Shown: positions 11,801 to 25,292 of the stretch, piece by piece
How positions within the stretch are numbered: the stretch's first letter is position 1
How the letters are laid out: every line of letters starts with the position of its first letter
Assembly: GCA_026210745.1 (NCBI GenBank)
Contig: CP110630.1
Location: 5,084,001 to 5,148,000, forward strand
From: Exobasidium rhododendri
Taxonomy: Eukaryota; Basidiomycota; Exobasidiomycetes; Exobasidiales; Exobasidiaceae
Direction: 5' to 3'
DNA: 64,000 nucleotides
Position numbers and translations under genes: made by a program
Notes under the pieces: generated by a model
Seen by the model: the letters and a program-made list of their open reading frames with translations, nothing else
The model's database searches: none
Told to the model about the DNA's origin: nothing

Positions 11801-14041
11801 TCAATGCAATTCTGCACACAGGATCCGAAAGCCTGCACCCACTTGAGCCCAAGGCGGCCGAACATATCGAATGTGCAACAGCCCTGAAAGTACGGCGGTG
11901 AGGCGTATGAGAAAGAGATGCAGAACGAGAGCCACGACGAAAGACGAAGAGGTGTCGATGAGATCGTTGTAGGGATGGAAGTCGATGTCGTGCAGTAGTC
12001 GTTGCGCGATGTGGTGGTAGTGGTCGGTCTCGTCGGCGTGGGGGTTGCTGTTGGTGATGGACCACTTCAAGTGTGATCGTCTTGCTCTTGCAGCTACTCT
12101 GCTTTTCCACGTCGATTCTGGCGCGCTTGCTGCTGCCGACGTTGTTAGATTTTTGCCAAAGATCTGATGGAAAATTTCGATTGAGCTCACTCCCCATTTC
12201 CTATCGGCTATGCTTCCAAACAAGCGTGCCTGATCGGGTGTGTAGGATGCAAAGTCGAGATAAAAGCTGGAGGAGAGCATGTAGACTGTCAATCGCAGTA
12301 GATTGTGGCTGTCGATCTCCAACTCTGGCTCTTCATGGAGTTTTTGACCTTTGTAGAAGTACGTCGGACTAATTTCAGCATTGCGACTGGTGAGGAGAAC
12401 AAGAATGTTTGTATGTTCCCTTGTTTGATGGCAGGCATACTTCTCGAATTGCACTTGACAGTTGCGCTCCATAAATCCGTCTTCGTTCCAGTAGATGGAG
12501 CCGGAACTGGCCGATTTGGTGGGCTTTGATTGCACTGGATTCAAGTCGACAGGCCACCCCACGCCATCAAATGCGGCTCTCTTTTCGCTCTCCTGCTCAT
12601 CTAGTAGACCTTGGCCTTGCAGCTCTGGACGGATGAAGACTGGCAGTCTGCGTTTCCAATGCAATTTCGCTGCTTGCCACATGATGCGACTGACGGGCAG
12701 CAACAAGTCCAACGGCTGCGACAGAAGAGCTTTCAGCATGTTCCTTGACGTCAAGGGTTGAGCAAGTCGTTGTGGAAGAATGCTGGAAGACTTGGCGGCA
12801 CTGGACGTCAGGGTGGCCAAAAGTTTCTTCCGTAGTATCATCTGCCCGGGCTCTGGCGAATCTCTCCATTCTTCATCTTCATCAGTCACAGCCCCTTCAT
12901 CTTTCCGTTCTTCTGCTTCATCCACCAGTAGTAACAGACGGATGTCGAGCGTTGGGATTCCGCTGTTGTCGTCATCGCCTTCGTTGCTCCATAGATCACT
13001 CATGAAAAGTTGATAGTATCCAGATCGATCGTTGAAGGGACTTACATGAAAAGCCCTTGGGAAAGTCCATGAATGATGATATCTTCTTCTTCTAGTCATG
13101 CCTTTATCAGCATCCTCTCCGACCCCGACTTGACATATGTATACGTGCCTCTCGTTGAAAGTGTTGTGAACCTCCAACACGACGAGCCACAGCTTCCCGA
13201 TCTTTGGCCGCCTGCTTTCCTCGTTCTCTTTGACCGGTCGATACACGTAGTAGATTGTCAGGGGATTGAAGCCTCCCATTCCAAGCAAGCTCGGCATAGC
13301 GACTGCCCATACCTCTCCTACCTCTTTTGACCAAGGTGCATTGGCATCAGTAGTAGAACTTACGCTGCCTTCAGCAAAGGTGTCCTGCGGTCCCGCACTT
13401 GTGAATCCGCGGAGTCTCAGCTCGTACAGTAGTTTCAGTAGAATCGACTTTGACAATTTCAAAGCAGCGTCATCTTTCAAGCCATGGAAGGATCTCCTTC
13501 CAAATCCCTCCGGATCCAGTCTAGTCAAGCTCCATTTCCACCAGCTCCTGAAAACGTCTGCTTTGCCTTGTGACAGAGGCGACCAAGTGAAGATGTGATT
13601 CAGCTCAGTCTTGCCCGACTCCATGTCTTTCAGATTCATTGCAAGAAAGATCGACGGGTATCTAAATTGGTGCTGGGACTCCTTGGGCAATATCCTAGCA
13701 TGATGAATTTGAACTGGTACTATGTAGCCTCCATATCCACCTTCTCTTTGCGTCTGCGAACCTTTCTCAGCGTGGCGCTGTGTCTTTCGACTTGCGACAG
13801 AGTGCAGCTCCCCCGAGTTGAGACGACTAAGAGGCGACCAGATTCTGCTCGTGCAGCCAAGTAAAGTAGCAAGTCCAGTAGAAAGGGGCGAAAGGGCCAA
13901 CGATGCAAGGACGAGCAAGACTGGCACAGTAATATCAGCCAAGCTTGACGAGATCATTGCTGGTGGGGCATCGTGCAGGGAGGCAAGGCACGTAGCGAGG
14001 AAGGAATGAATCCGAGGGCAAAAGTAGAATATATTTCCCAT
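11801..14041 (-). CDS. DUF1365-domain protein, membrane-associated
   Basis: Intronless, 746 aa. A hydrophobic N-terminal stretch (about 25-60, ITVPVLLVLASLALSPL) suggests a membrane anchor. Residues about 105-380 carry the DUF1365 signature: RHAEK..VPVQIHHARI, FNPLTIYYVYRP, VVLEVHNTFNERHVY and RAFHVSPFNDRSGYY. In bacteria this family sits beside cyclopropane fatty acid synthases and is linked to lipid modification; the fungal role is not known to me. A second hydrophobic segment near the C-terminus (SSSFVVALVLHLFLIRLTAVL) may be another anchor. The start could be 14041 or the in-frame Met near 13956 (MISSSLADIT). Its 5' end borders the putative mobile element. Confidence 0.82.
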   Translation of the reverse strand: MGNIFYFCPRIHSFLATCLASLHDAPPAMISSSLADITVPVLLVLASLALSPLSTGLATLLGCTSRIWSPLSRLNSGELHSVASRKTQRHAEKGSQTQREGGYGGYIVPVQIHHARILPKESQHQFRYPSIFLAMNLKDMESGKTELNHIFTWSPLSQGKADVFRSWWKWSLTRLDPEGFGRRSFHGLKDDAALKLSKSILLKLLYELRLRGFTSAGPQDTFAEGSVSSTTDANAPWSKEVGEVWAVAMPSLLGMGGFNPLTIYYVYRPVKENEESRRPKIGKLWLVVLEVHNTFNERHVYICQVGVGEDADKGMTRRRRYHHSWTFPRAFHVSPFNDRSGYYQLFMSDLWSNEGDDDNSGIPTLDIRLLLLVDEAEERKDEGAVTDEDEEWRDSPEPGQMILRKKLLATLTSSAAKSSSILPQRLAQPLTSRNMLKALLSQPLDLLLPVSRIMWQAAKLHWKRRLPVFIRPELQGQGLLDEQESEKRAAFDGVGWPVDLNPVQSKPTKSASSGSIYWNEDGFMERNCQVQFEKYACHQTREHTNILVLLTSRNAEISPTYFYKGQKLHEEPELEIDSHNLLRLTVYMLSSSFYLDFASYTPDQARLFGSIADRKWGVSSIEIFHQIFGKNLTTSAAASAPESTWKSRVAARARRSHLKWSITNSNPHADETDHYHHIAQRLLHDIDFHPYNDLIDTSSSFVVALVLHLFLIRLTAVLSGLLHIRYVRPPWAQVGAGFRILCAELH

Positions 14042-14055
14042 CGTTTGACTTTTCG

Positions 14056-14184
14056 TTTTGACTGGCGCGCGCCTCGATCTTGGCCCTGGATTTAGACTTT
14101 GAAATCACGAAGATTCTCGTGTTCTCGTGACTTCCAAAATCACGAAGATCTTCGTGATTTTGCAAATTTTTATTTTTTGACTGG
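14056..14184. repeat. direct and inverted repeat cluster at left edge of putative element
   Basis: TTTTGACTGG occurs at 14056-14065 and 14175-14184, each followed within a few bases by a GCGCGCG tract. AAATCACGAAGAT occurs at 14102-14114 and 14138-14150. A perfect 28-bp palindrome spans 14135-14162 (half-site CAAAATCACGAAGA). Such dense, short repeats beside a recombinase element suggest protein-binding sites, but they could also belong to the promoter of the DUF1365 gene. Confidence 0.6.
14156..14169 (+). repeat. left copy of 14-bp direct repeat (candidate attachment-like site)
   Basis: GATTTTGCAAATTT, identical to 18215-18228 in the same orientation. The core TTTGCAAA is itself a palindrome, as in many tyrosine recombinase crossover sites. 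The two copies bracket both element genes. Role inferred; the copy lies partly within the 28-bp palindrome. Confidence 0.4.
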
Positions 14185-14289
14185 TTGTGCGCGCGTTGAA
14201 CCCCTTTTTTAGATTGGGCTTTTCCCCCCTACAGAAGATCTCATCTCACCCCCCCCACCACCACCCTGGCATTGGTATACCATAATACT

Positions 14290-15198
14290 ATGCCTTTCAG
14301 ACCTAAGAGACTTGACACAGATGCTGCTAGGAAGAGGAGGGAAAGGGTAGAGGTGCAGAGCCGCAAAATTGCCCATCATCATGAGCATCCACACGCCTAC
14401 ATTGATCTGGAAGACAGGACTAACATTACCATCAGTGCTGGCCATAAGACCATTATGCAGCGCTTCTCTCCTACCTCAACAAGGTCAGCTGCCCGTCTCA
14501 ACGAGATGTACAGGGAGGGATGGGAGCTGAAGGAGTCTCTTTACAAGTCAGCGCTGGAGAATTTAGATGATCCTGATCGTCACGGAGCACTGGTGGTTCA
14601 TTTGGGGATATGGTACAATTTTGGTCGGCAGATAGGTTGGACACGGGAACACATCAGATGCAAGCCTGCTTCAGACAAGATGCTTGACTGGATTCATTCA
14701 TTCTTTATGTCATTTGTCATCATCTTGGACTCCCTACTTGCAGAAGACTTCAGAGAGGAACTGGACACTCGGGAAGAAGGTTTTGAATGGATGGAATCTC
14801 TCTTCCCCGCTGGTGATTGTAGTCTTCTACATCCATGGTATGCACTGGCTGCCGTCATACAAGGCTTCTCGACAGAGAGTCATAGAGACAGCAGGGATTC
14901 AGATCCAACTATCCTCATCAATTTTGGGTGTAAGGTGGTCATAGAGGTGGAAGGGTCGGCCGTATGTCTCCACCCGGGAGATGTCCTCTTCTTCAGAGCT
15001 AATATGGAACACAAGGTCAGACCAACGGATGGAACTTCAGAAGAAGACATGGCAAGGAGATATGCAGTAAGTCTGTCAATGAGACGGCTGATAGTGCTGA
15101 AAAAACAGCTCCCTTCCATGGAAGTCCGAGATGTAGAAGGTGCTGGATCCTCAACAAGGATACCCCGTGTAAGAAGCAAGAAAGCTCATGTACCATAA
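14290..15198 (+). CDS. predicted 2-oxoglutarate/Fe(II) dioxygenase, TET/JBP-like
   Basis: 302 aa, single exon, first ATG at 14290. The C-terminal half reads as a double-stranded beta-helix dioxygenase: HxD at His198-Arg-Asp200 (TESHRDSRD), a Gly-rich strand (ILINFGCKVVIEVEG), CLHPGDVLFFRANMEHKV with distal iron ligand His241, and ARRYAV with a candidate 2OG-binding Arg256/257. The HRD..D then PGD-x-x-FF-x(5)-H arrangement resembles fungal TET/JBP-type enzymes, which oxidise 5-methylcytosine or thymine and are known in fungi as cargo of KDZ transposons. The N-terminus is basic (DAARKRRERVEVQSRK). Neighbour: a convergent recombinase in the same putative element. It could instead be another 2OG oxygenase; substrate unknown. 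Confidence 0.58.
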   Translation: MPFRPKRLDTDAARKRRERVEVQSRKIAHHHEHPHAYIDLEDRTNITISAGHKTIMQRFSPTSTRSAARLNEMYREGWELKESLYKSALENLDDPDRHGALVVHLGIWYNFGRQIGWTREHIRCKPASDKMLDWIHSFFMSFVIILDSLLAEDFREELDTREEGFEWMESLFPAGDCSLLHPWYALAAVIQGFSTESHRDSRDSDPTILINFGCKVVIEVEGSAVCLHPGDVLFFRANMEHKVRPTDGTSEEDMARRYAVSLSMRRLIVLKKQLPSMEVRDVEGAGSSTRIPRVRSKKAHVP

Positions 15199-15894
15199 TT
15201 AGACCAATAGACACAATTTAGACCACCCCAAAGGATGTTCAACGGTGTGAGAAAAAAATTTCAAAAAAATCCTTACAGGCATCCGAATGGATGAAATGAA
15301 TATTTTTCTGCCACACACTTTTTTGAAAAAAATCTCTTACAGGCATCCTAATTGTAAACACTTATTGTGAGCCACTGAGCCATGCTAGAGACATGTTTGA
15401 TATCATTTTAGAAAGTTCAGAGGTAGCATATTTTGTGGTTTGAAGCGTTTCAAGAGAAAAAGGTAGGTGTCTTGTACACAGTCTGTTGAACATTTGCGTT
15501 TTTTTTTTTTTCAAAATCCTTACACGCAAGGACAATCTAGAGCCTGACGGTGACTTGCTCAGACATGCTAGAGACATGGTTAAGGACACTATCAAGAGAT
15601 CAGAAGGAGCATATTCTATGGTCTTAATATTGTGTCAATTGCATGATACAAATTCATCTCATAATCTGTCAAAGAAGTGTTGCTTCAAGAAAATTAGGGC
15701 ATACGTGAGCAAATATTATTGCTTAGTTAGAGCCATGTAAAATAGGGAATGGGAGCCAAATGCTTGCATCTCAAGGTAGGACTACGCTTGATGATGTTTT
15801 GGGAAGTTCATAAGGAGCATATTATGTGGGTTAAACAGTTTGTCAATTACATGTCATGTCACTGCTCAGTTGTACGTTGGAAGATACAGATAAT
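15199..15894. repeat. non-coding element centre with three degenerate direct repeats
   Basis: AT-rich stretch between the two convergent element genes. A unit containing CATGCTAGAGACATG and, about 40 bp on, AGCATATT recurs at about 15381-15445 and 15564-15630 (spacing 183), and a third diverged copy at about 15785-15850 (spacing 208). A shorter motif, CTTACAGGCATCC, occurs at 15272 and 15336, with a variant near 15519. No convincing reading frame. These may be degenerate subrepeats or remnants of a larger cargo gene. Confidence 0.55.
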
Positions 15895-17886
15895 TCAGCC
15901 TTTTTGCACTACTCGTATATCTTTTTCTTCAGCCTTTATTGCATCAATGTATCTACGCAATGTCAAGCCAGGACCACCATATGCCTCATAGAATGCCTTT
16001 AGATCCTTATTACGCTTGAGATACCCATCATAGATCTTCTTGCGTAGACTGTACACTTGAGCATTTCCCCCTTTGTCCTTCTTGCGCATAGCGGGGGTCC
16101 AACGGCACAAAGCCAGAAGGTTCTGACTTGCATTGCCCAATTCCCATTGCTTAACAACCTCCTCTACTGTCTTTACAGATGGTATTCTCAGTGGCAGCGG
16201 CCTGCCAGGAGCTATGTGCGGCGTCCCACTTGCCAGAGCAGAAGCAGCGTTGGCACCAATAGCAACTGCTGCAGAGGTGCCGGCAAGGTGTTCCAGTTGA
16301 CTGTTGACGCTGTTGACTACACTGGGTGTTGCTGCTGTGTTTGCGGTGCCAGCCTGTGCCTGCACTCTCTGTGAACCCTGCAACAGTGCTTCTACAAGGC
16401 TGACGTTGGTCTGCTGCATTATACTGAGTTGTTTCTCGAGCTTTCCAAGGGCGTACTGGAAAGACTCTATCATGCGGTCCTGTCCTGACATTTGTGCACC
16501 TGCAAAGTAGCTACCTCGGACGTTGTCTCCACCTGGATCCTCCATATCTCCATGATACTCTTCTTGCGTAGCAACCTCTTCTAAGAGGTAGTGAGCCAAC
16601 ATGTTGGTACGCTCCCCTTTAGACCAGCCACCCCACCACAGGGCACGCGTAATGGACTGCCTCTGTTCTCCATACAGGTGTGCGTGTAATACCGCGTCTT
16701 GTGCTCCGCCGCGTCGGAAACAGTGAGACGTAAATTTGCCCTGCTGATTCTTCAGCATACTGTTGATATTCTCTATCTGACCCAACATTAAATTGATCTG
16801 TGCTGCTTCCATCCTTGTGCCAGTCTGCAGACGGCCCACCTTCTTGTCTGGTGCAGGAAAGATGTGATCGGTTGGCCTTGGCTCATGTCCGCAAACAAGT
16901 TTCCAGTAAGCATGCCACCGTTGATATGATGAGACAGCATCTACCAATGGCCGTCCAGGCAGGAAGTAGAGCTGGTATACGTTGGCTTTGTTCAGTTCAT
17001 ACTGATTTGTTTTGCGGAATGCAATTGTCACTTCCAGATAGGGATTGTTTCCCGGAGAAGAGAATTTGATTGTTGAATGTATGTGACGCCATAGCATTGA
17101 GCAGATCTCATCACAACGTGCCCAAAGCCTGTAAGCCAGGATCATGTAGAAATGCATGAACTCTAATTGTGTACGCTCACTTGTGATGAGATGTGGTGTT
17201 GCGTCAAAGGCAAGTAGCTTTGTCTTGATGTCCTTTAGGATGACGGACAGATACTGATAAAGCATTGGTAGAGAGCTTTTGCTTGCAACCAGAGAGCGCT
17301 TCACTTCACGCATCTTGCTTCTGAATAGGTTCAGATACCTCTTACTGAAGACAGGATTGCCCGTCCATTCTCCTTCTGTGGTCTTGTGCCAGCCAGTTTG
17401 CGGAGCACTATCACAGTTGTGTACAGTAAGGAAGTGCCATTTGAGCGCTGCGTGCATACTTTGCAGTGTGCTTGAGTTGGCATCGGCCAGTCTCACACGC
17501 TCTTGTAACCAGGCGCGGCAGAGCCTTTCACTGTGCTCACCAAGCATGTCTAGGCCGTCTTTAAATGTACAAGAGCTGCCTAATGTTGCAATCCATTTCC
17601 TGAAGCGTACAATATTCTGCTTGTATGATTTAATTGTTCCACTCGACAACAAATGATCTTGAACGTACTGATCACCAAATGCATCATCCCATTCATCTGC
17701 AATCTCTGCGTTGGGCATTGCTTCTGTTGTATTATTGATCTCTGCTGACTCAATGTTGCCAACGGTCTCTTTTGTGCTAGACGGTGCAACATCATCTTCC
17801 ATATCAATGACCATTCCCAGCTGCAGATTAGCTTCTGCCAAGAAGTGCTCAGCGGCACGAGTAATCCTTCCTCTATGATTGGACAT
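15895..17886 (-). CDS. tyrosine recombinase, Crypton type, with GCR1_C-like C-terminus
   Basis: 663 aa, no intron. Core-binding region about 75-160 (GTIKSYKQNIVRFRKWIATL). Catalytic domain about 235-440 with a full set of residues: Arg257 (LWARCDEICSML), Lys292 (AFRKTNQYE), His388-x-x-Arg391 (TSHCFRRGGAQ), Trp421 in the second His/Trp position (WWGGWSKGE) and nucleophile Tyr433 (LAHYLLEE). A Ser/Ala/Thr linker follows, and the C-terminal about 95 residues (VVKQWELGN...RWTPAMRKK...YSLRKKIYDGY) resemble the GCR1_C DNA-binding domain typical of fungal Cryptons. Role: excision and integration of the element through a covalent 3'-phosphotyrosine intermediate. It appears intact. Some host DNA-binding proteins derive from Cryptons, so domestication is an alternative, but the linked repeats favour an element. 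Confidence 0.85.
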   Translation of the reverse strand: MSNHRGRITRAAEHFLAEANLQLGMVIDMEDDVAPSSTKETVGNIESAEINNTTEAMPNAEIADEWDDAFGDQYVQDHLLSSGTIKSYKQNIVRFRKWIATLGSSCTFKDGLDMLGEHSERLCRAWLQERVRLADANSSTLQSMHAALKWHFLTVHNCDSAPQTGWHKTTEGEWTGNPVFSKRYLNLFRSKMREVKRSLVASKSSLPMLYQYLSVILKDIKTKLLAFDATPHLITSERTQLEFMHFYMILAYRLWARCDEICSMLWRHIHSTIKFSSPGNNPYLEVTIAFRKTNQYELNKANVYQLYFLPGRPLVDAVSSYQRWHAYWKLVCGHEPRPTDHIFPAPDKKVGRLQTGTRMEAAQINLMLGQIENINSMLKNQQGKFTSHCFRRGGAQDAVLHAHLYGEQRQSITRALWWGGWSKGERTNMLAHYLLEEVATQEEYHGDMEDPGGDNVRGSYFAGAQMSGQDRMIESFQYALGKLEKQLSIMQQTNVSLVEALLQGSQRVQAQAGTANTAATPSVVNSVNSQLEHLAGTSAAVAIGANAASALASGTPHIAPGRPLPLRIPSVKTVEEVVKQWELGNASQNLLALCRWTPAMRKKDKGGNAQVYSLRKKIYDGYLKRNKDLKAFYEAYGGPGLTLRRYIDAIKAEEKDIRVVQKG

Positions 17887-18002
17887 GTTCTGGTGTGACG
17901 CTTCAGCTGATTGCGTTGATTTCCCTGCCTTCTACCAGCTATGGTCTTGCTTATTATTGTGATTTGTGAGACGGTGGAGTTCCTCAGGGCGCACAAAGTC
18001 AG

Positions 18003-18249
18003 GTCAATCCAGTCAAGTAGTGAAATGAGACGGGTCAATCCAGTTTCTGCATTAAAAGTCAATCCTGGAGGCATATGCAGCATATTTTTTGGCCTGCTAC
18101 GCAGGCATTTTGGGAAATAAGCACATATGCCCTGTTGGATTGACTTTGCATTTTGAAGTGGCAAACATCTCCCAAACACTCTGACGCGTTCAACATGGCC
18201 CTTTTGGCAGGGAAGATTTTGCAAATTTGCGGGCTCGGCTCGGATTGAC
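18003..18249. repeat. clustered GTCAATCC motifs, direct and inverted
   Basis: GTCAATCC at 18003-18010, 18034-18041 and 18058-18065; its reverse complement GGATTGAC at 18137-18144 and 18242-18249. Five copies in under 250 bp, upstream of the recombinase gene and near DNMT5's 3' end. Could be binding sites for the recombinase's C-terminal DNA-binding region or promoter elements. The last copy lies outside the 14-bp repeat, so the element edge may be further right than 18228. Confidence 0.6.
18215..18228 (+). repeat. right copy of 14-bp direct repeat (candidate attachment-like site)
   Basis: GATTTTGCAAATTT, identical to 14156-14169; flanking bases differ on both sides (GAA before, GC after), so the match is exactly 14 bp. 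See the left copy. Confidence 0.4.
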
Positions 18250-18491
18250 TCACGCGTCAATTGCATCGGATAAGTTAAAATTGCCTTCACATAAGCGTGC
18301 GTCCCGGGTTGTGGAGGAAATATCACTCAGCGTGCAGCACTTGTCTATAACAGAACCAAAGGGCGTCAGAAGGTAAAGGGCGACGACACAAAAGGTGACA
18401 GTACAGGAGTTCCACGTCATAGATTCAAAGCAACACAGGGGTAAGTGGGAATAGAGTAGCAAGAACAGTACCTGCAGCTACCACTACAGCA

Positions 18492-21400
18492 TCACTTCTT
18501 CTTCGGTTTTGCTTTCTCTTGCTTCTTCATGCGCTCTCGAATGTCAATCAAGTCTAGCTGCTCCGTCTCTTCGTCGATCTCTTCCAACTTCTGCGCTTCT
18601 CTTCTTTCATACGTGGCCTGATCAATCGTATCTCGAACGAGGAACCTCCAGATCTTCACATTCTTCGTTTGACCAAATCGGACAGCTCGACCTTTTGCTT
18701 GCTCCATAGTGGCATGATACGATTGCTCTTCTTCACTGATCAACGTGCTTAGGAAGATGACATGATTTGCCACCGTCAAGTTACTTCCTGCCGCACTCTC
18801 ATCGGCAATGTTCAAGAGAAGGACCCTTTCATTGCCTTCTTGAAAGCCACTCAACTGAGTCGATCGTACACTTGCATTGCCTTTCAGCCGTACAAAGTCG
18901 ATGCCATACTCTTGCAGTGCTTCAGAGACCTTCTTCAGCAATCCGTCATACTGAACAAACAGCAGAATCCTCTCCTTCTTAGGGATGACGTTCTTGATAA
19001 TGGTGGCAACGCTGGCTAGCTTTATTCCGTATGCCGTCGTTCTGTCCTTTTCATGTCCCAACGTGGACGCAAACACAATCGAAGCTGCCTTTGCCATGGC
19101 ATGGCAATTCGCCGTGCAGCACTTGCCGATGTACGCCTCCCTCAAGACACATTCATTGCATCCAGAATGACCGCATGTAGAAGCAATGGAGATCTCCTCT
19201 AGCGAAAGTCGCACTCCCTTCCTACTGCACTTCACTGAAGGACATATGATGTTAAGTCGGTGAATGCCATCCACCGCAGGACTGCTCCTTGCCCTTTGAA
19301 TGTCGCGAACCGTCTGGAAGTAGCGCAGACTTCTCACTCGACTCCAGTATTCATTGCGAAGCCTTTGCAACATGTGCACCATGTCCCTTACCAGATGCTC
19401 TTCCAGCCAGTCCTGCTCCTTGTCTTCCTTCTTCTGCTTGAATTGCGGATAAAGCCTACGTCCCTTTTCACGACTCAAGCCGTCCTTGTTGCACTGCAAT
19501 CTATTTAGCATCTCAATCAACAAAGGCTTGCAATCATCGTCGCCCCAGGCTCCATTCTCTACGTTCCTTGCAAACGTCACCAGCGCTTGGTTCGCGTCGT
19601 CTCGAAATCTCCTCTGAAGCAACACGACAAAGTGCTGCTTCTTGGCCATGATTAGGTCCCTTTCCAGCTGTTTAAAGCAATCGTCTTTCTGCTCTTTTCG
19701 CTCGGCAACAATGTACTCGCATGCTTCGATGGCGTTCGACAGTCGATTCCCTTCTTCTTCCGACAAGATAAAATGACTGGCTTGTCGACTCAACGCTTCA
19801 TCAGGGCTGGCACTCTCTCCCAACGACTTGAGTAGACGTTCATCCCGGTCATTCCCACTATTGACCTGGCCCTTCTTGCCCGCCGCTGCTGCTGCCGACG
19901 TCGTTTTCTGACTCGTCTTGAACAATCGACGAGCATGACGAAGATCGAGCGCTTCGATCATGTGCGCCAGCTCCAAGTAGCACGCCCTCTCTGCTGCAGG
20001 CATTCGAATCGGCTTGACAATCACTTCCATCGGAATCTCATCAATCTCGGCCACATTTTGTCGAACGAACCTATCCAGGAATGATTGACCCAGCTTCTGT
20101 CTCCGATGATGCCAATCGGCGCTTTGAATCCCCACAAAGTTGCGGAATTGTTCCGCTTGCGTTCTTGACTTGGCCGTCTTTGTTCGGATCGACGACTTTG
20201 TGCTATCTTCATCGTCGTAGATGCCCAGATGCACTTTGAGAAAGGCTGCAATGCTCTGCACATCGGCAAAGTCGGCAGTGGGAGGCGTGCCGGAAAGGAT
20301 CCAGGTAGCATCACCTTGAAGCTCCTTTATAGCGGAAAAGGCTCGATCGGCCGTCTCGGCAATGTAATGAAACTCATCGATGACGACTCGTTGCCATCGA
20401 AATGCCTCCATCGGCAGCGCCTTGACCTGTTCCCAGTCCTTGTGCGTCGCCTTGTCTTGCAAACCCCAAATATCTGGCAGTACGCTTGAGGAGCCCTTCA
20501 AGTCGGCCAGGTCCACCTCTGCCTGCTTCAGTACATCTTCCTCCTCGTCCTCCTTCTGCAGTTCTGCTCCTCCCTCCTTCTTCTTGCCACCGTGGGCGTC
20601 TTGATAGGCTTGTCCTGCGAGACGCCTGCTTGCTTTCCGCGTCGTGAACTGGCTCCCATCAAAGTCGACTTTGTTCTTGACGCTCTCTCTCACTTTCTCC
20701 GCTCCATCGACTTGCAGTTCGCGCATTCTGTTCCGCAGACCACGCAGGCAGCACTGCAAGGAAGAGTCAAAGTATCTCCCGGCCTTTGCCGGAAGGGGAT
20801 TAGCAGCCGCCAAGCACGCCAAACCTTCAAAATAAGCGTCGCTCTTGTACACAGTGACACTCATAATAACGATGTCCGCCCGTCGAATGTCACGAATCGT
20901 CACCTCGTTGAGGTTTGCTTTGCTGTAGATGATGACAACTTTCATCGAATTGCCGCAGAATTTCTTCACCTCCCCTTCCCACTGCTTGCAGAGATGGGGT
21001 GGTACGATGACCAGAGTCGCTTTGGTGGTGACGAAGCGAAGATCCTGCTTCTCGTCTCTCCCCTTCTCTATCGGCGCACTTTTCTCCGCCTCTTGTCTTG
21101 TTTTGGAGGCGATCAAGCCCAAGGTGATTGCCGTCTTTCCGTATCCTACTGCGTCAGCCAAGACTCCTCCTCTCACCAAAACGTTCCTTTGCGCCTTTCC
21201 CTCCACTCGCCAGCCCAACGGATTCAACGCTCCTTCAGCCACCTCCTCCTCTTGGAAGGGTGGCACAATGTCGCTCTCTTGCGATAACATCCAGTGCAGC
21301 GATCTCTTTTGCTCCTTACGAAGGGGTATTCGGAACATGATTGGATCATCCGCTTCTGCATCATCTCGATTGCTGCTCAGTCTGTACCTTGGCAGGTTGA

Positions 21401-24400
21401 ACAAGTCGAGGGACGGATCTGTGAGGGACATTTGCCAAGACAGCTGAACATCACCCTGCACTGCTTCATTGGGAGGCAGGCGTGCCATAGCACGATGGGC
21501 TAGAGTGAGCGCATTCACACCTATTCGCACGTAGCCTTTGGACCCTTGCCCCTTCAATTGCACGACAAAGGGGGAGGGTCTCCTCTTCAGTGCTTGTTCG
21601 TACGGTCCAGCTTGCTGTTCGTTTTCCATTGGAACGGGGGAGCGTCCCGGAAGGTGAAGCCATTGAATAGCAGGAGGACGAGGAGCGCATCGCTGGCACC
21701 GCTCCTGTGACTCTGTCTCGATAGTCATCCAGGAAGAGAGTGTCGGGGGCAGTCGAATCCGTTCCGTCAGCCATGCAAGGGATCGAAAGGTGGTGGCCGC
21801 GTGGTGTTCGAGATCTACCTGATACCACGCCCCCTCAACATTGGGCCACAGCCTTCTAGCCGAGCCGAAGATCGACGAAGCAATTGTGACAACGGTGGCT
21901 GCATGCTCACACGGAGAAAGAGCAAAATTCTGCCGATCTCCCAGAGCCAGTTGGGCGGAGAAATGCGCTGGGAATGTCACTTTCAGCGCTGGCCAAGGCA
22001 GCCAACGCCCAGTCACGCTGAGCTCCACCTTCTCACTAAGCTCTTCCACGTCTGTGTTCTGATTCCTTGTCTTGGGCCGCTTTGGCTTCCACCCTCCAGG
22101 ACATTGAGCGATTCCAACTCGTTCCAACGGGAACGGTAGCTTCCTGATGTCGCTGGAGAAGACGAACATGTCCGCTTCCTTTCCCTTGAAGCGGTCTGGA
22201 TCGAGGAAGAAGTAGAGCCTGCCGACTCCCTTGCTCTCCTTTCGTGCAAAGAGCGATCCGTTTGCTGTTCCACAGTCGTCAAGTAGCTCATACGTCCCGC
22301 TGATGTCGACGTCCAGCTCTGCCTTTGCTGGCGTAGGCACCTGAATACTGAGTGTAGAGAATCGCTTTGTCCCTGCGAATTCGCCTTCGATGCCCATCTT
22401 GGCCTGCCACGTCGGTACCAATGCACCATGGTGTTTGAACTCGGTCGAGAATCGAGTCGACGAAGGAAGACAAATCTCCCACTGGCCACTCAGTAGGAAG
22501 ACATCCTTGCCATTCACGTCGACACTCATCCGAGCCACAGGTTGCAGCAGCATCTTTCTTAGTCGACTTCCTGCGACCTCACTGCTCTCTGCTTCTACGT
22601 ACAGTCTCCAGTGCGGTCTTTCAGCGTCTAACAAGAGCTCCAGCTTGACGCCATATCCACTGTAGCTTACCGACCATGTCCGCTGTCGGAGTATCTCATT
22701 GAAGCGGATCTCGACACCTTCACTGAGGATAGCGGACACGCGGTGCAGCCAAGCCTTGAGAAGAGTGTCTTCCGACTTGTGAACAGTCCGACTCATCTCC
22801 TTCAATTCTACCAAGCTAGGTCCCTGCAGCCATAGTCGCATAGGAAGGGCCTTCTTGAGCACCCGTGCAAATGAGATTGGATCTTTTCGTGGCCTGTCAT
22901 CGATGAATAGATTGTGCTTCGGCCTTCCTTTGCAGGCGGCACACGTCGTTTGCTGACAAGACGAGCATCGATGTACGATCTGTGACGTTGTCCCACTCCT
23001 TCCTTCGCAGGTACAACGCTGACTGCTTGCTACGGCGGCTTCGATCAAGTCCCTCATCGAGATTGGCTCGCACGACGTGATATCGTACAGCTCCTCCTTG
23101 GCATGGCCCACCATCTTTGTACCGATTTGGCCATCTTTTGTGTAGATCACTCTCCCGTCTTCCACTCTGTTAGCCGTCTCGTCACTCATCTTGACGTCTG
23201 CATTCTCCTTCCTGGCTTCGAAATCGGGGCGAGCGATGACCAAGGCAGAGAGAATGCAGGTGCCTACCACTGTGGAGCTCATCGCATTCCCTGCCAAATT
23301 TTGCAGCTGATCATTCGTCTCTCTGGTCAGCAACAGCTCATCGATGGGCAGACCTTGAAGGGAGAGCGCCTCTAATCCTACCATTGGTCCACCTCGACTT
23401 GTCAAGTAGGGCATCCCGCTCGGTGTCAGACACATACATATTCCAGGTCTGGCAGAGGCAATGTTCCGATCGACATTCTGACTCAACTCCCAAACTCGAC
23501 TCTTGTAGTGCGGATCGACTTCTTCCTTTGCAGCACGCATGATCGTCACATCGAGCAAGTCCAGCACCCTTTCTGGCTGCGGTTGAGCCCATTCGTTCCA
23601 AGCGTCGTGGGACAGATGGCACGTTCCACCTTCTTCCCAAGCAGTGAAAGGTCTATTCTTGCCCAGCGACTCTTCATCTCGGGCCCTCTCATGGCGTTGC
23701 TGACACTTGGACCAGTCGATCGTTGATCTGCCCTTCCCTAGTCCTTCTCCTAGTGCGAATTGAGTCCGAACTTTTTGGATACGTGGATCGTCCGGTGCTA
23801 GGAGGAAGTCTTCCAGCGAGGACGAAGCAGGTCGCGCTAGACTTCTGGTCAGCGCTTCCCAATTGCCTGCATACGAGTCCTTGCGATTGCGAGTGGCTAC
23901 AAGGTACCCACGTTGTCTTGTGTGCGGTATGTAGTAGTTCTTGGTGTCAAAGGTGTTAGACCAAGCGGCGTCGTAGTTGATATCACAGAAGGCATCACCT
24001 ACTCCTGGCCAAGGTGCTGATTTGACATTCTCCAGCAGAACTATGGCCGGCCGATGTCTCTTCACCCAGTTCAACATACCAAAGAACGTCCTACCACTTT
24101 CACCTCCATCGCCCATGCCCTTTTTGTTGCTGTTCAGGTTGGAGTAATCAACGCAAGACGTTCCAGCCACCAGTAAGTCAACGTTGCCAGGAACGTCGAC
24201 AAGAGCTCCATATGCTGTGTGCGCTTGATCACCTCCGAGTTCGCAAACATCTCGGAATAGAACGGGCGGGGCAAAATTACGTTCAATGTATGCCTGTTTG
24301 TACGGCTCAATTTCACAGGAGAAGACATGTTGGATCTCAATCTGGATACCATGCTGCTTCTTGATGGCTCGAGAGATCAGATTGAGTGCCAAGAGGGGCG

Positions 24401-25292
24401 ATTCAGTCCCACTGCACATCGTAGCAACTCGAAGTGGTCGACCTTGTAGCGTCATTGCGAGTTCCTTAATTCCAGGTGTCCTCTGAACAATGTCTGCAAA
24501 GATGTCTTCCAGGTTCGAGATAGGAGGATAGCCACCGCGAAGCTCCTTGGCTTTGGCTTCCTTCTCTATAAGAAGAGCTTGCTGCAGAGTGGGTACATTC
24601 TTGATTCTCTTGATCGCTGCACCCGCTCGGAACTTTGGCTCCCAGGCGCCCTTCTTCCCAGACGAACCCTTCTTCCTACTTACACCCACTACAGCGCCAT
24701 CTTCGCTTTCGTTTTCTACCTCCTCTTCAGTCCCATACTCCACATAGTCCACATCGTCCTCGGCCATTACTGCATCCGGAGGGGGGTCACGAATCGTAGG
24801 CTTCTTCGCCATTGCTCCACCAAAGAACATTGACAGCTTCGATTGGCGAGCTTCAGAAGCCGATGATCTGGGGCCAGATCTATCTACAGGTGAGCTCTGT
24901 ATCCTGTTCGGAGGGGTACCGATTTCAACGATTGGCTGTCTTACCCTGTCTATCTTGGCTACTACCCTTCGCGAAGACTGACTCGGAGCTTTTTCCAGCT
25001 TGACGTCGATCTCTACGATGGGATCCCTGCCAAAGTAGTGTCTCGCAGACGGAGACGACGCTTGCGTGGGCTTGCTCTCATTTCTTGTCTTCGCCCTCTT
25101 CCTTGCAGGTTCTTCATCGCTCTCAAGCTCCGCGCTGGCTGGACTTGTCGAGGCGCTGTCGAGAATATTAGAGTCGCTTTCCGCTAGACTGCTCGATCTT
25201 GTTTGACTGCTTGTTGTGCTTGTGCCAATCATCATATCAGATGCAAGCACAAAGTCCTCGTCGTCACTATCCGCTATAGTGATTCTGCGCAT
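18492..25292 (-). CDS. DNMT5: DNMT5-type ATP-dependent cytosine DNA methyltransferase
   Basis: Intronless, 2266 aa. N-terminal about 250 residues are charged and disordered, with a possible NLS (PARKRAKTR). The C5-methyltransferase domain (about 285-680) shows motif I VATMCSGTESP, motif IV LLVAGTSCVDYSNLN, motif VI LLENVK, motif VIII TRQRGYL and motif X NLAGNAMSSTVVG. A Cys-rich finger follows (CSSCQQTTCAACKG, near 775). An SNF2 ATPase fills the C-terminal half: Walker A LADAVGYGKT (about 1381), DEFH (about 1640), SGTPP, a RING-like Cys/His insert (CGHSGCNECVLREAYIGKC), and helicase motifs V-VI ending GRAVRFGQTKN (about 2200). DNMT5 enzymes maintain CpG methylation on hemimethylated DNA using ATP, as in Cryptococcus. 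I see no N-terminal chromodomain. Lies beside the putative element with the dioxygenase. Confidence 0.95.
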   Translation of the reverse strand: MRRITIADSDDEDFVLASDMMIGTSTTSSQTRSSSLAESDSNILDSASTSPASAELESDEEPARKRAKTRNESKPTQASSPSARHYFGRDPIVEIDVKLEKAPSQSSRRVVAKIDRVRQPIVEIGTPPNRIQSSPVDRSGPRSSASEARQSKLSMFFGGAMAKKPTIRDPPPDAVMAEDDVDYVEYGTEEEVENESEDGAVVGVSRKKGSSGKKGAWEPKFRAGAAIKRIKNVPTLQQALLIEKEAKAKELRGGYPPISNLEDIFADIVQRTPGIKELAMTLQGRPLRVATMCSGTESPLLALNLISRAIKKQHGIQIEIQHVFSCEIEPYKQAYIERNFAPPVLFRDVCELGGDQAHTAYGALVDVPGNVDLLVAGTSCVDYSNLNSNKKGMGDGGESGRTFFGMLNWVKRHRPAIVLLENVKSAPWPGVGDAFCDINYDAAWSNTFDTKNYYIPHTRQRGYLVATRNRKDSYAGNWEALTRSLARPASSSLEDFLLAPDDPRIQKVRTQFALGEGLGKGRSTIDWSKCQQRHERARDEESLGKNRPFTAWEEGGTCHLSHDAWNEWAQPQPERVLDLLDVTIMRAAKEEVDPHYKSRVWELSQNVDRNIASARPGICMCLTPSGMPYLTSRGGPMVGLEALSLQGLPIDELLLTRETNDQLQNLAGNAMSSTVVGTCILSALVIARPDFEARKENADVKMSDETANRVEDGRVIYTKDGQIGTKMVGHAKEELYDITSCEPISMRDLIEAAVASSQRCTCEGRSGTTSQIVHRCSSCQQTTCAACKGRPKHNLFIDDRPRKDPISFARVLKKALPMRLWLQGPSLVELKEMSRTVHKSEDTLLKAWLHRVSAILSEGVEIRFNEILRQRTWSVSYSGYGVKLELLLDAERPHWRLYVEAESSEVAGSRLRKMLLQPVARMSVDVNGKDVFLLSGQWEICLPSSTRFSTEFKHHGALVPTWQAKMGIEGEFAGTKRFSTLSIQVPTPAKAELDVDISGTYELLDDCGTANGSLFARKESKGVGRLYFFLDPDRFKGKEADMFVFSSDIRKLPFPLERVGIAQCPGGWKPKRPKTRNQNTDVEELSEKVELSVTGRWLPWPALKVTFPAHFSAQLALGDRQNFALSPCEHAATVVTIASSIFGSARRLWPNVEGAWYQVDLEHHAATTFRSLAWLTERIRLPPTLSSWMTIETESQERCQRCAPRPPAIQWLHLPGRSPVPMENEQQAGPYEQALKRRPSPFVVQLKGQGSKGYVRIGVNALTLAHRAMARLPPNEAVQGDVQLSWQMSLTDPSLDLFNLPRYRLSSNRDDAEADDPIMFRIPLRKEQKRSLHWMLSQESDIVPPFQEEEVAEGALNPLGWRVEGKAQRNVLVRGGVLADAVGYGKTAITLGLIASKTRQEAEKSAPIEKGRDEKQDLRFVTTKATLVIVPPHLCKQWEGEVKKFCGNSMKVVIIYSKANLNEVTIRDIRRADIVIMSVTVYKSDAYFEGLACLAAANPLPAKAGRYFDSSLQCCLRGLRNRMRELQVDGAEKVRESVKNKVDFDGSQFTTRKASRRLAGQAYQDAHGGKKKEGGAELQKEDEEEDVLKQAEVDLADLKGSSSVLPDIWGLQDKATHKDWEQVKALPMEAFRWQRVVIDEFHYIAETADRAFSAIKELQGDATWILSGTPPTADFADVQSIAAFLKVHLGIYDDEDSTKSSIRTKTAKSRTQAEQFRNFVGIQSADWHHRRQKLGQSFLDRFVRQNVAEIDEIPMEVIVKPIRMPAAERACYLELAHMIEALDLRHARRLFKTSQKTTSAAAAAGKKGQVNSGNDRDERLLKSLGESASPDEALSRQASHFILSEEEGNRLSNAIEACEYIVAERKEQKDDCFKQLERDLIMAKKQHFVVLLQRRFRDDANQALVTFARNVENGAWGDDDCKPLLIEMLNRLQCNKDGLSREKGRRLYPQFKQKKEDKEQDWLEEHLVRDMVHMLQRLRNEYWSRVRSLRYFQTVRDIQRARSSPAVDGIHRLNIICPSVKCSRKGVRLSLEEISIASTCGHSGCNECVLREAYIGKCCTANCHAMAKAASIVFASTLGHEKDRTTAYGIKLASVATIIKNVIPKKERILLFVQYDGLLKKVSEALQEYGIDFVRLKGNASVRSTQLSGFQEGNERVLLLNIADESAAGSNLTVANHVIFLSTLISEEEQSYHATMEQAKGRAVRFGQTKNVKIWRFLVRDTIDQATYERREAQKLEEIDEETEQLDLIDIRERMKKQEKAKPKKK

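Follow-up and report, generated by a model that had tools for sequence, protein, structure and literature searches.

A Crypton-like element of the gall fungus Exobasidium rhododendri carries a predicted TET/JBP-like dioxygenase

Introduction

Transposons of fungi that carry a TET/JBP-like dioxygenase gene (TET+ transposons) were reportedly treated in an earlier account by Iyer et al. (2014). JBP appears within citations of that account in PMC12477816, PMC11244446, PMC5718144 and PMC12810828. Kojima 2025 (PMC12730594) describes ten lineages of TET+ elements from three classes of fungi, and according to its Discussion the TET+ transposons found so far either use DDE transposases or are Helitrons. 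As described by Kojima and Jurka (2011, PMC3212892), CryptonF elements encode a recombinase with a GCR1_C domain, lack terminal inverted repeats (TIRs) and end in direct repeats of 4 or 6 bp. Here, we analyse a Crypton-like element that carries a predicted TET/JBP-like dioxygenase. It lies in a window of 64,000 nucleotides (the whole stretch of DNA under study, C1:5084001-5148000) of Exobasidium rhododendri, a gall fungus of the Exobasidiomycetes (Ustilaginomycotina) with a genome of 17.6 Mb in 4 contigs; C1-C3 denote contigs and L-numbers genomic loci of this species.

The initial annotation of the window had proposed such an element and had referred to TET/JBP enzymes as cargo of KDZ transposons. 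The latter are indeed known carriers, but many more transposon classes have been described (PMC12730594). Our reading, to which we assign a probability of about two in three, is that of a recently mobile Crypton whose TET/JBP-type dioxygenase counters methylation silencing and forms an exchangeable cassette.

Results

Copies, limits and ends of the element

We searched the genome with positions 14170-18214, i.e., the extent of the element as initially annotated, and obtained 12 matches: six full-length copies (among them the one in the window), a diverged seventh copy in two halves (L019) and four short pieces. Comparing the flanks of the copies yields limits of 14022-18275 (4,254 bp) that are common to all seven, such that the annotated unit is real but larger than proposed. 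The window copy and those at L001, L002, L003 and L005 show 0 differences over 4,254 bp. In the sixth copy (L006), one base is missing near window position 16097 and its recombinase frame is thus broken near residue 600. The 700-bp flanks of these six near-identical copies show no mutual similarity. Together, these comparisons suggest that the element was recently mobile in E. rhododendri.

Both open reading frames (ORFs) were found where the initial annotation had placed them, with the dioxygenase gene (+) convergent to the recombinase gene (-) (Table 1). Each of the 7 copies found contains both genes, and the dioxygenase frame is open in all of them. With six near-identical copies of 4.25 kb, each at a different and unrelated site, and a diverged seventh, the element is far beyond chance.

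With regard to the ends, all seven copies show AAGT at both junctions. The left 200 bp and the right 150 bp were compared for exact inverted repeats of 9-20 bp, of which there are none. When the genome was searched with either end (terminal 150 bp), the matches listed comprised only the seven copies, i.e., neither solo nor non-autonomous derivatives were found among these. The assignment to Cryptons, which agrees with the initial annotation, rests on the direct repeats, the absence of TIRs and the predicted recombinase; the GCR1_C-like end of the latter is only suggestive.

Four other explanations of the locus were ruled out. A segmental or assembly duplication is excluded because the 700 bp on either side of the near-identical copies are unrelated among all six, and a chance co-location of the two genes by their joint presence in 7/7 copies. 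No Pfam domain of a reverse transcriptase or DDE transposase was found at E <= 1 in the two long genes of the element, which excludes a DIRS-like retroelement with regard to the reverse transcriptase. Finally, a Starship, for which size serves as a criterion, is excluded by the length of only 4.25 kb; a weak DUF3435 match is present in 1/18 recombinase relatives.

Table 1. Features of the element and its neighbourhood in window coordinates.
Feature	Position	Strand	Details
Whole Crypton-like element	14022..18275		4254 bp; limits common to 7 copies, 700-bp flanks of 6 copies unrelated
AAGT direct repeat, left	14022..14025		at left junction in 7/7 copies
AAGT direct repeat, right	18272..18275		at right junction in 7/7 copies
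28-bp perfect palindrome, candidate protein-binding site	14135..14162		near left end
14-bp direct repeat GATTTTGCAAATTT, left copy	14156..14169	+	near left end
14-bp direct repeat GATTTTGCAAATTT, right copy	18215..18228	+	near right end
TET/JBP-like 2-oxoglutarate (2OG)/Fe(II) dioxygenase gene	14290..15198	+	302 aa from ATG; ORF; Pfam Tet_JBP best, E 4.7e-4, under cut-off
HxD motif H198-R199-D200	14881..14889	+	Asn replaces Asp in L019 copy only (A1)
Distal metal ligand H241	15010..15012	+	invariant in A1, 6 proteins
Candidate 2OG-binding R257	15058..15060	+	invariant in A1, 6 proteins
Spacer stretch common to Crypton and Harbinger-like family	15266..15540		87% over 239 bp, 83% over 276 bp; absent at this place in L019
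Tyrosine recombinase gene	15895..17886	-	663 aa; ORF; 26 other related proteins at E <= 0.001; catalytic set conserved
GCR1_C-like C-terminal region	16009..16182	-	Pfam GCR1_C E 0.024, below cut-off
Recombinase catalytic core R257 to Y433	16588..17118	-	alignment A2
Host neighbour, DNMT5-type gene (DNA methylase + SNF2 + helicase C)	18492..25292	-	Pfam; 216 bp from element

Tyrosine recombinase

At E <= 0.001, 27 database proteins match the recombinase, the window's own included. They include proteins from Ceraceosorus bombacis (39% identity), Parajaminaea (36% and 33%), Jaminaea rosea (34%), Artomyces (30%) and Mortierella relatives (22-28%). For 18 of the 27 proteins we built an alignment (A2), in which K292, R391, W421 and Y433 are present in 18/18 and R257 and H388 in 17/18 sequences. 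That is, the R-K-H-R-H/W-Y set of tyrosine recombinases is complete, as had been annotated. The GCR1_C-like end described along with it is weak: the match exists but reaches 15.4 bits compared to a cut-off of 23 (E 0.024), and 4/18 members of A2 match at E <= 0.1. Phage_integrase matches 2/18 members. The A2 profile found no PDB chain at E <= 1, and scans of viral contigs with A2 as well as with the dioxygenase profile A1 (see below) gave no confirmed relative.

A mosaic seventh copy

The diverged copy L019 (C1:988.4-992.5 kb) differs from the window copy in a strongly uneven manner. Its recombinase half is 98.1% identical over 2,760 bp, whereas its dioxygenase retains 53% protein identity (161/302 residues). 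The left ~290 bp are better conserved again (91% over the first 150 bp), i.e., the divergent block is essentially the dioxygenase coding sequence plus the spacer. This is also reflected in the synonymous divergence (dS) between both copies, which is 0.059 for the recombinase and 1.83 for the dioxygenase. Since such a contrast is not explicable by faster protein change alone, the dioxygenase cassette will have been exchanged. L019 thus appears to carry a swapped dioxygenase cassette with the recombination machinery kept. Its dioxygenase is 62-63% identical to the environmental proteins P0001 and P0002, which are 63% identical to each other, compared to the 53% shared with the window's protein.

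The ratio of nonsynonymous to synonymous divergence (dN/dS) between both copies is 0.088 for the recombinase and about 0.22 for the dioxygenase, the latter being rough given a dS near saturation. These values point to amino-acid constraint on both genes.

The database protein CBS101457_000424 is the L019 dioxygenase from its second methionine. On the reverse strand, L019 shows a 100-bp tandem duplication across its left junction, flank included (at about positions 2499 and 2599 of the reverse complement).

Family membership of the dioxygenase

The window dioxygenase shows the HxD...H iron site and the downstream arginine in the arrangement initially annotated (H198-R-D200, H241, R257). We compared it using three profiles, namely A1 (6 dioxygenase-family proteins), A3 (five Crypton-type proteins) and A5 (which includes a protein of a Harbinger-like element), and in parallel with a relative encoded by a MULE-like (Mutator-like) element of the same genome; both elements are described below. 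The latter relative was the only addition made by a third protein search. Environmental homologues of the window dioxygenase show 45-57% identity.

Several results argue for a TET/JBP-type enzyme. Tet_JBP is the first-ranked Pfam family for the window protein (E 4.7e-4, 19.8 bits vs. a curated cut-off of 34.9), ahead of Cupin_2 (1.2e-3), such that the best score does not go to a family unrelated to nucleic acids; the proposed TET/JBP likeness is thereby supported, though below the cut-off and with Cupin_2 close behind. Tet_JBP is also the best family of the MULE-element protein (E 0.0043). A genome-wide Tet_JBP scan gave 7 matches at E <= 1, none over the cut-off, which are the dioxygenases of 6 Crypton copies and of the MULE-like element; among 14 control genomes, a below-cut-off match was also obtained in E. 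coli. In profile searches of the PDB, A1 places the Naegleria TET enzyme (NgTET) first and second (E 0.0035 and 0.0047) and A5 places it first (E 3e-5), and the MULE-element protein alone finds it as best match (E 0.0094 and 0.014).

The main competing explanation is a 2OG oxygenase of another kind, e.g., an AlkB-like DNA/RNA repair enzyme or a protein hydroxylase, for which the Tet_JBP score would stem from shared double-stranded beta-helix motifs. Here, the points that weigh against a TET/JBP enzyme come together. Every Tet_JBP score is under the Pfam cut-off, and Tet_JBP is the best family for 2/6 family members only. Cupin_2 matches 5/6 members compared to 4/6 for Tet_JBP and outscores it for the four close relatives of the window protein. 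Searched alone, the window protein finds only cupins in the PDB (E 0.84 and 1), and profile A3 finds no TET at E <= 10. The best Foldseek matches of its structure model are cupins and AlkB, and with VIA-align AlkB and ALKBH1 tie with or lead NgTET. However, since the models of both the Crypton and the MULE-element dioxygenase are of low confidence (pLDDT, i.e., predicted local distance difference test, of 48.0 and 47.7), the fold comparison cannot separate TET from AlkB, and for the MULE-element model the NgTET rows show the highest identity (22-23%), best of the 50 rows listed. Furthermore, no AlkB occurs in the PDB results for A1, A5 and the MULE-element protein that put NgTET first, nor are AlkB or P4H families among the Pfam matches of the window protein at E <= 1. 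We thus consider an oxygenase of another kind unlikely, although it is the strongest competitor of the TET/JBP assignment. PHROGs and NCBIfam searches gave nothing useful.

CpG depletion and host methylases

The observed/expected CpG ratio is 0.54 in the Crypton, 0.52 in the MULE-like and 0.57 in the Harbinger-like element (0.65 in the 1.1-kb flank of the latter). In comparison, the surroundings of the Crypton, divided into 103 overlapping windows of equal length to it, range from 0.74 to 0.95 (median 0.86), and the flanks of the other five near-identical copies, ten in total, from 0.81 to 0.92. The respective TpG/CpA ratio is raised to 1.35 in the element vs. 1.14 for the window. Between the recombinase halves of the window copy and L019 we counted 52 differences, of which 45 are transitions, 22 of them at CpG. 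That is, transitions affect 22/188 CpG positions vs. 23/1127 other C/G positions (Fisher 1.7e-8). This pattern suggests that such elements were exposed to CpG methylation in the past.

A methylase scan of the genome found two C5-methylase loci, one of DNMT5 type and one with best PDB matches of DNMT1 type. The former is the gene at 18492-25292 next to the element, which we take to be of DNMT5 type by its domain architecture. On the other side, a DUF1365 ORF (11801-14041) begins inside the element (at 14041), which therefore will have inserted at the 5' end of a DUF1365 host gene.

Other carriers in the genome

The MULE-like element (L036 3951-7570, C1:4228951-4232570) spans 3,620 bp and holds the dioxygenase relative convergent to a 706-aa transposase. 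It is bounded by a 24-bp TIR (20/24 matches) and an exact 9-bp flanking repeat GACCAGGAT, in line with the target duplication of about 9 bp in MULEs; such a pair at 14/24 or more occurred in 0/60 flank shuffles. The transposase matches the Pfam families SWIM (E 3.1e-4, over the cut-off) and ZSWIM1-3 RNaseH-like (E 0.019, below the cut-off), with no MULE model listed. Based on these features, we classify the carrier as a predicted MULE-like element. One other relative of its transposase was found (44% identity), next to which the genome search showed no dioxygenase of this kind.

The Harbinger-like family is recognised by DDE_Tnp_4 (4.4e-21) and a Myb/SANT-like match below the cut-off (0.004). 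It shows TIRs and, as read in one copy, an ACT flanking repeat. It encodes a 421-aa 2OG oxygenase with HRD...H...R. Since this protein matches in Pfam only 2OG-FeII_Oxy_3 (0.057) and alone finds nothing in the PDB, we do not call it TET. The spacer shared with the Crypton (Crypton positions 15266-15503, 87%) is located directly 3' of this oxygenase gene in opposite orientation and possibly derives from a small nested insertion.

Copies of the Harbinger-like element are located at L049 1095-5877 (C1:6450501-6456500), C1:3.63M, C3:194.5k and C1:414k. Two of them retain an open oxygenase frame, whereas it is split in a third and degenerate in the fourth. Proteins with 36-37% identity to part of this oxygenase are encoded at four sites that lie no more than about 8 kb from a contig end (C1:3760, C1:7119159, C2:7433, C3:7425) and appear to form a subtelomeric 2OG oxygenase family.

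Discussion

In our preferred reading of a mobile Crypton with an anti-silencing gene, the recombinase would excise the element as a circle and reinsert it at AAGT. The predicted TET/JBP-type dioxygenase would oxidise 5-methylcytosine on the element's DNA, and this oxidation may counter silencing by host cytosine methyltransferases, for which DNMT5-type and DNMT1-like genes are present. The dioxygenase would act as an exchangeable cassette, with a swapped version in one copy and a relative in the MULE-like element of the same genome. Two observations weigh against this. First, CpG decay testifies to past methylation pressure at most and does not show protection by the enzyme, such that the escape from methylation silencing envisaged in the initial annotation gains indirect support only. 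Second, the L019 dioxygenase is probably inactive because its HxD motif reads HPN.

An alternative role of a TET/JBP-like enzyme would be in transposition itself, i.e., it could mark or unmark bases at the element's ends or targets and provide no silencing relief. Enzyme and recombinase are fully coupled in the genome (7/7 copies), as would fit such a role, and TET/JBP enzymes include thymine hydroxylases, with base J synthesis as a parallel for base marking. However, the CpG decay indicates that the pressure comes from cytosine methylation, and because a related gene resides in the MULE-like element with its different transposase and the published TET+ elements span many mechanisms (PMC12730594), we favour a benefit that is independent of mechanism and regard a role in transposition as improbable. 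Even less credible is a neutral passenger, i.e., a dioxygenase captured by chance that hitchhikes, which the loss of the metal-binding Asp in L019 would fit but which the open frames in 7/7 copies, the dN/dS of about 0.22 (rough, with dS near saturation) and the environmental homologues of 45-57% identity already disfavour.

Beyond the single element, TET/JBP-like dioxygenases could be a mobile anti-silencing cassette that crosses unrelated transposition systems within one small basidiomycete genome, i.e., the Crypton (7 copies), the MULE-like element and possibly the Harbinger-like element, in which part of the Crypton spacer recurs. We see the odds for this wider proposition as even. The mosaic seventh copy and the shared spacer would be the traces of such exchange.

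If our reading of a Crypton with an anti-silencing gene is true, a tyrosine-recombinase carrier would imply selection for a base oxidase independent of how the element moves, as one would expect if the gene counters silencing. The genome offers a compact setting, since within 17.6 Mb it combines the two cytosine-methylase loci found, several near-identical copies of the element and a CpG decay in which the conflict has left its mark. With L019 and its changed iron site as a natural control, the E. rhododendri system would make the lifting of methylation by transposon TETs directly testable.

Comparison with known systems

In the main text of PMC12730594, the terms Crypton, tyrosine recombinase, Mutator, Ustilagino and Exobasidium do not occur, and the passages considered of PMC13010171 mention neither Crypton nor methylation. 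Among titles and abstract starts of the literature outside subscription journals, no report of a dioxygenase-bearing Crypton or MULE was found. To our knowledge, the Crypton-like and MULE-like elements would extend the TET+ transposons to tyrosine-recombinase elements and MULEs for the first time, and likewise to the Ustilaginomycotina.

Members of the same recombinase family are present in Ceraceosorus, Parajaminaea, Jaminaea, Artomyces and Mortierella relatives (22-39% identity), and no protein named from these fungi is among the dioxygenase matches, for which the search sensitivity is limited. As in CryptonF (PMC3212892), we observe a tyrosine recombinase, a lack of TIRs and short terminal direct repeats; the recombinase may also resemble CryptonF in its C-terminal, weakly GCR1_C-like region. 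The differences concern the GCR1_C domain, which is present in CryptonF but scores below the cut-off here, and the repeats, which in fungal CryptonF elements mostly comprise 6 bp (4 or 6 bp as first described) compared to the 4-bp AAGT here. As extra genes, PMC3212892 reports a C48 peptidase and a mariner fusion, whereas our element carries the dioxygenase. The latter gene is what it shares with the TET+ DNA transposons of fungi (PMC12730594), in which a TET/JBP-like dioxygenase likewise lies beside a transposase in basidiomycetes and for which a movement of the gene between transposon classes has been proposed, too. In the best reading, the element of E. rhododendri adds a further transposon class carrying an anti-silencing gene.

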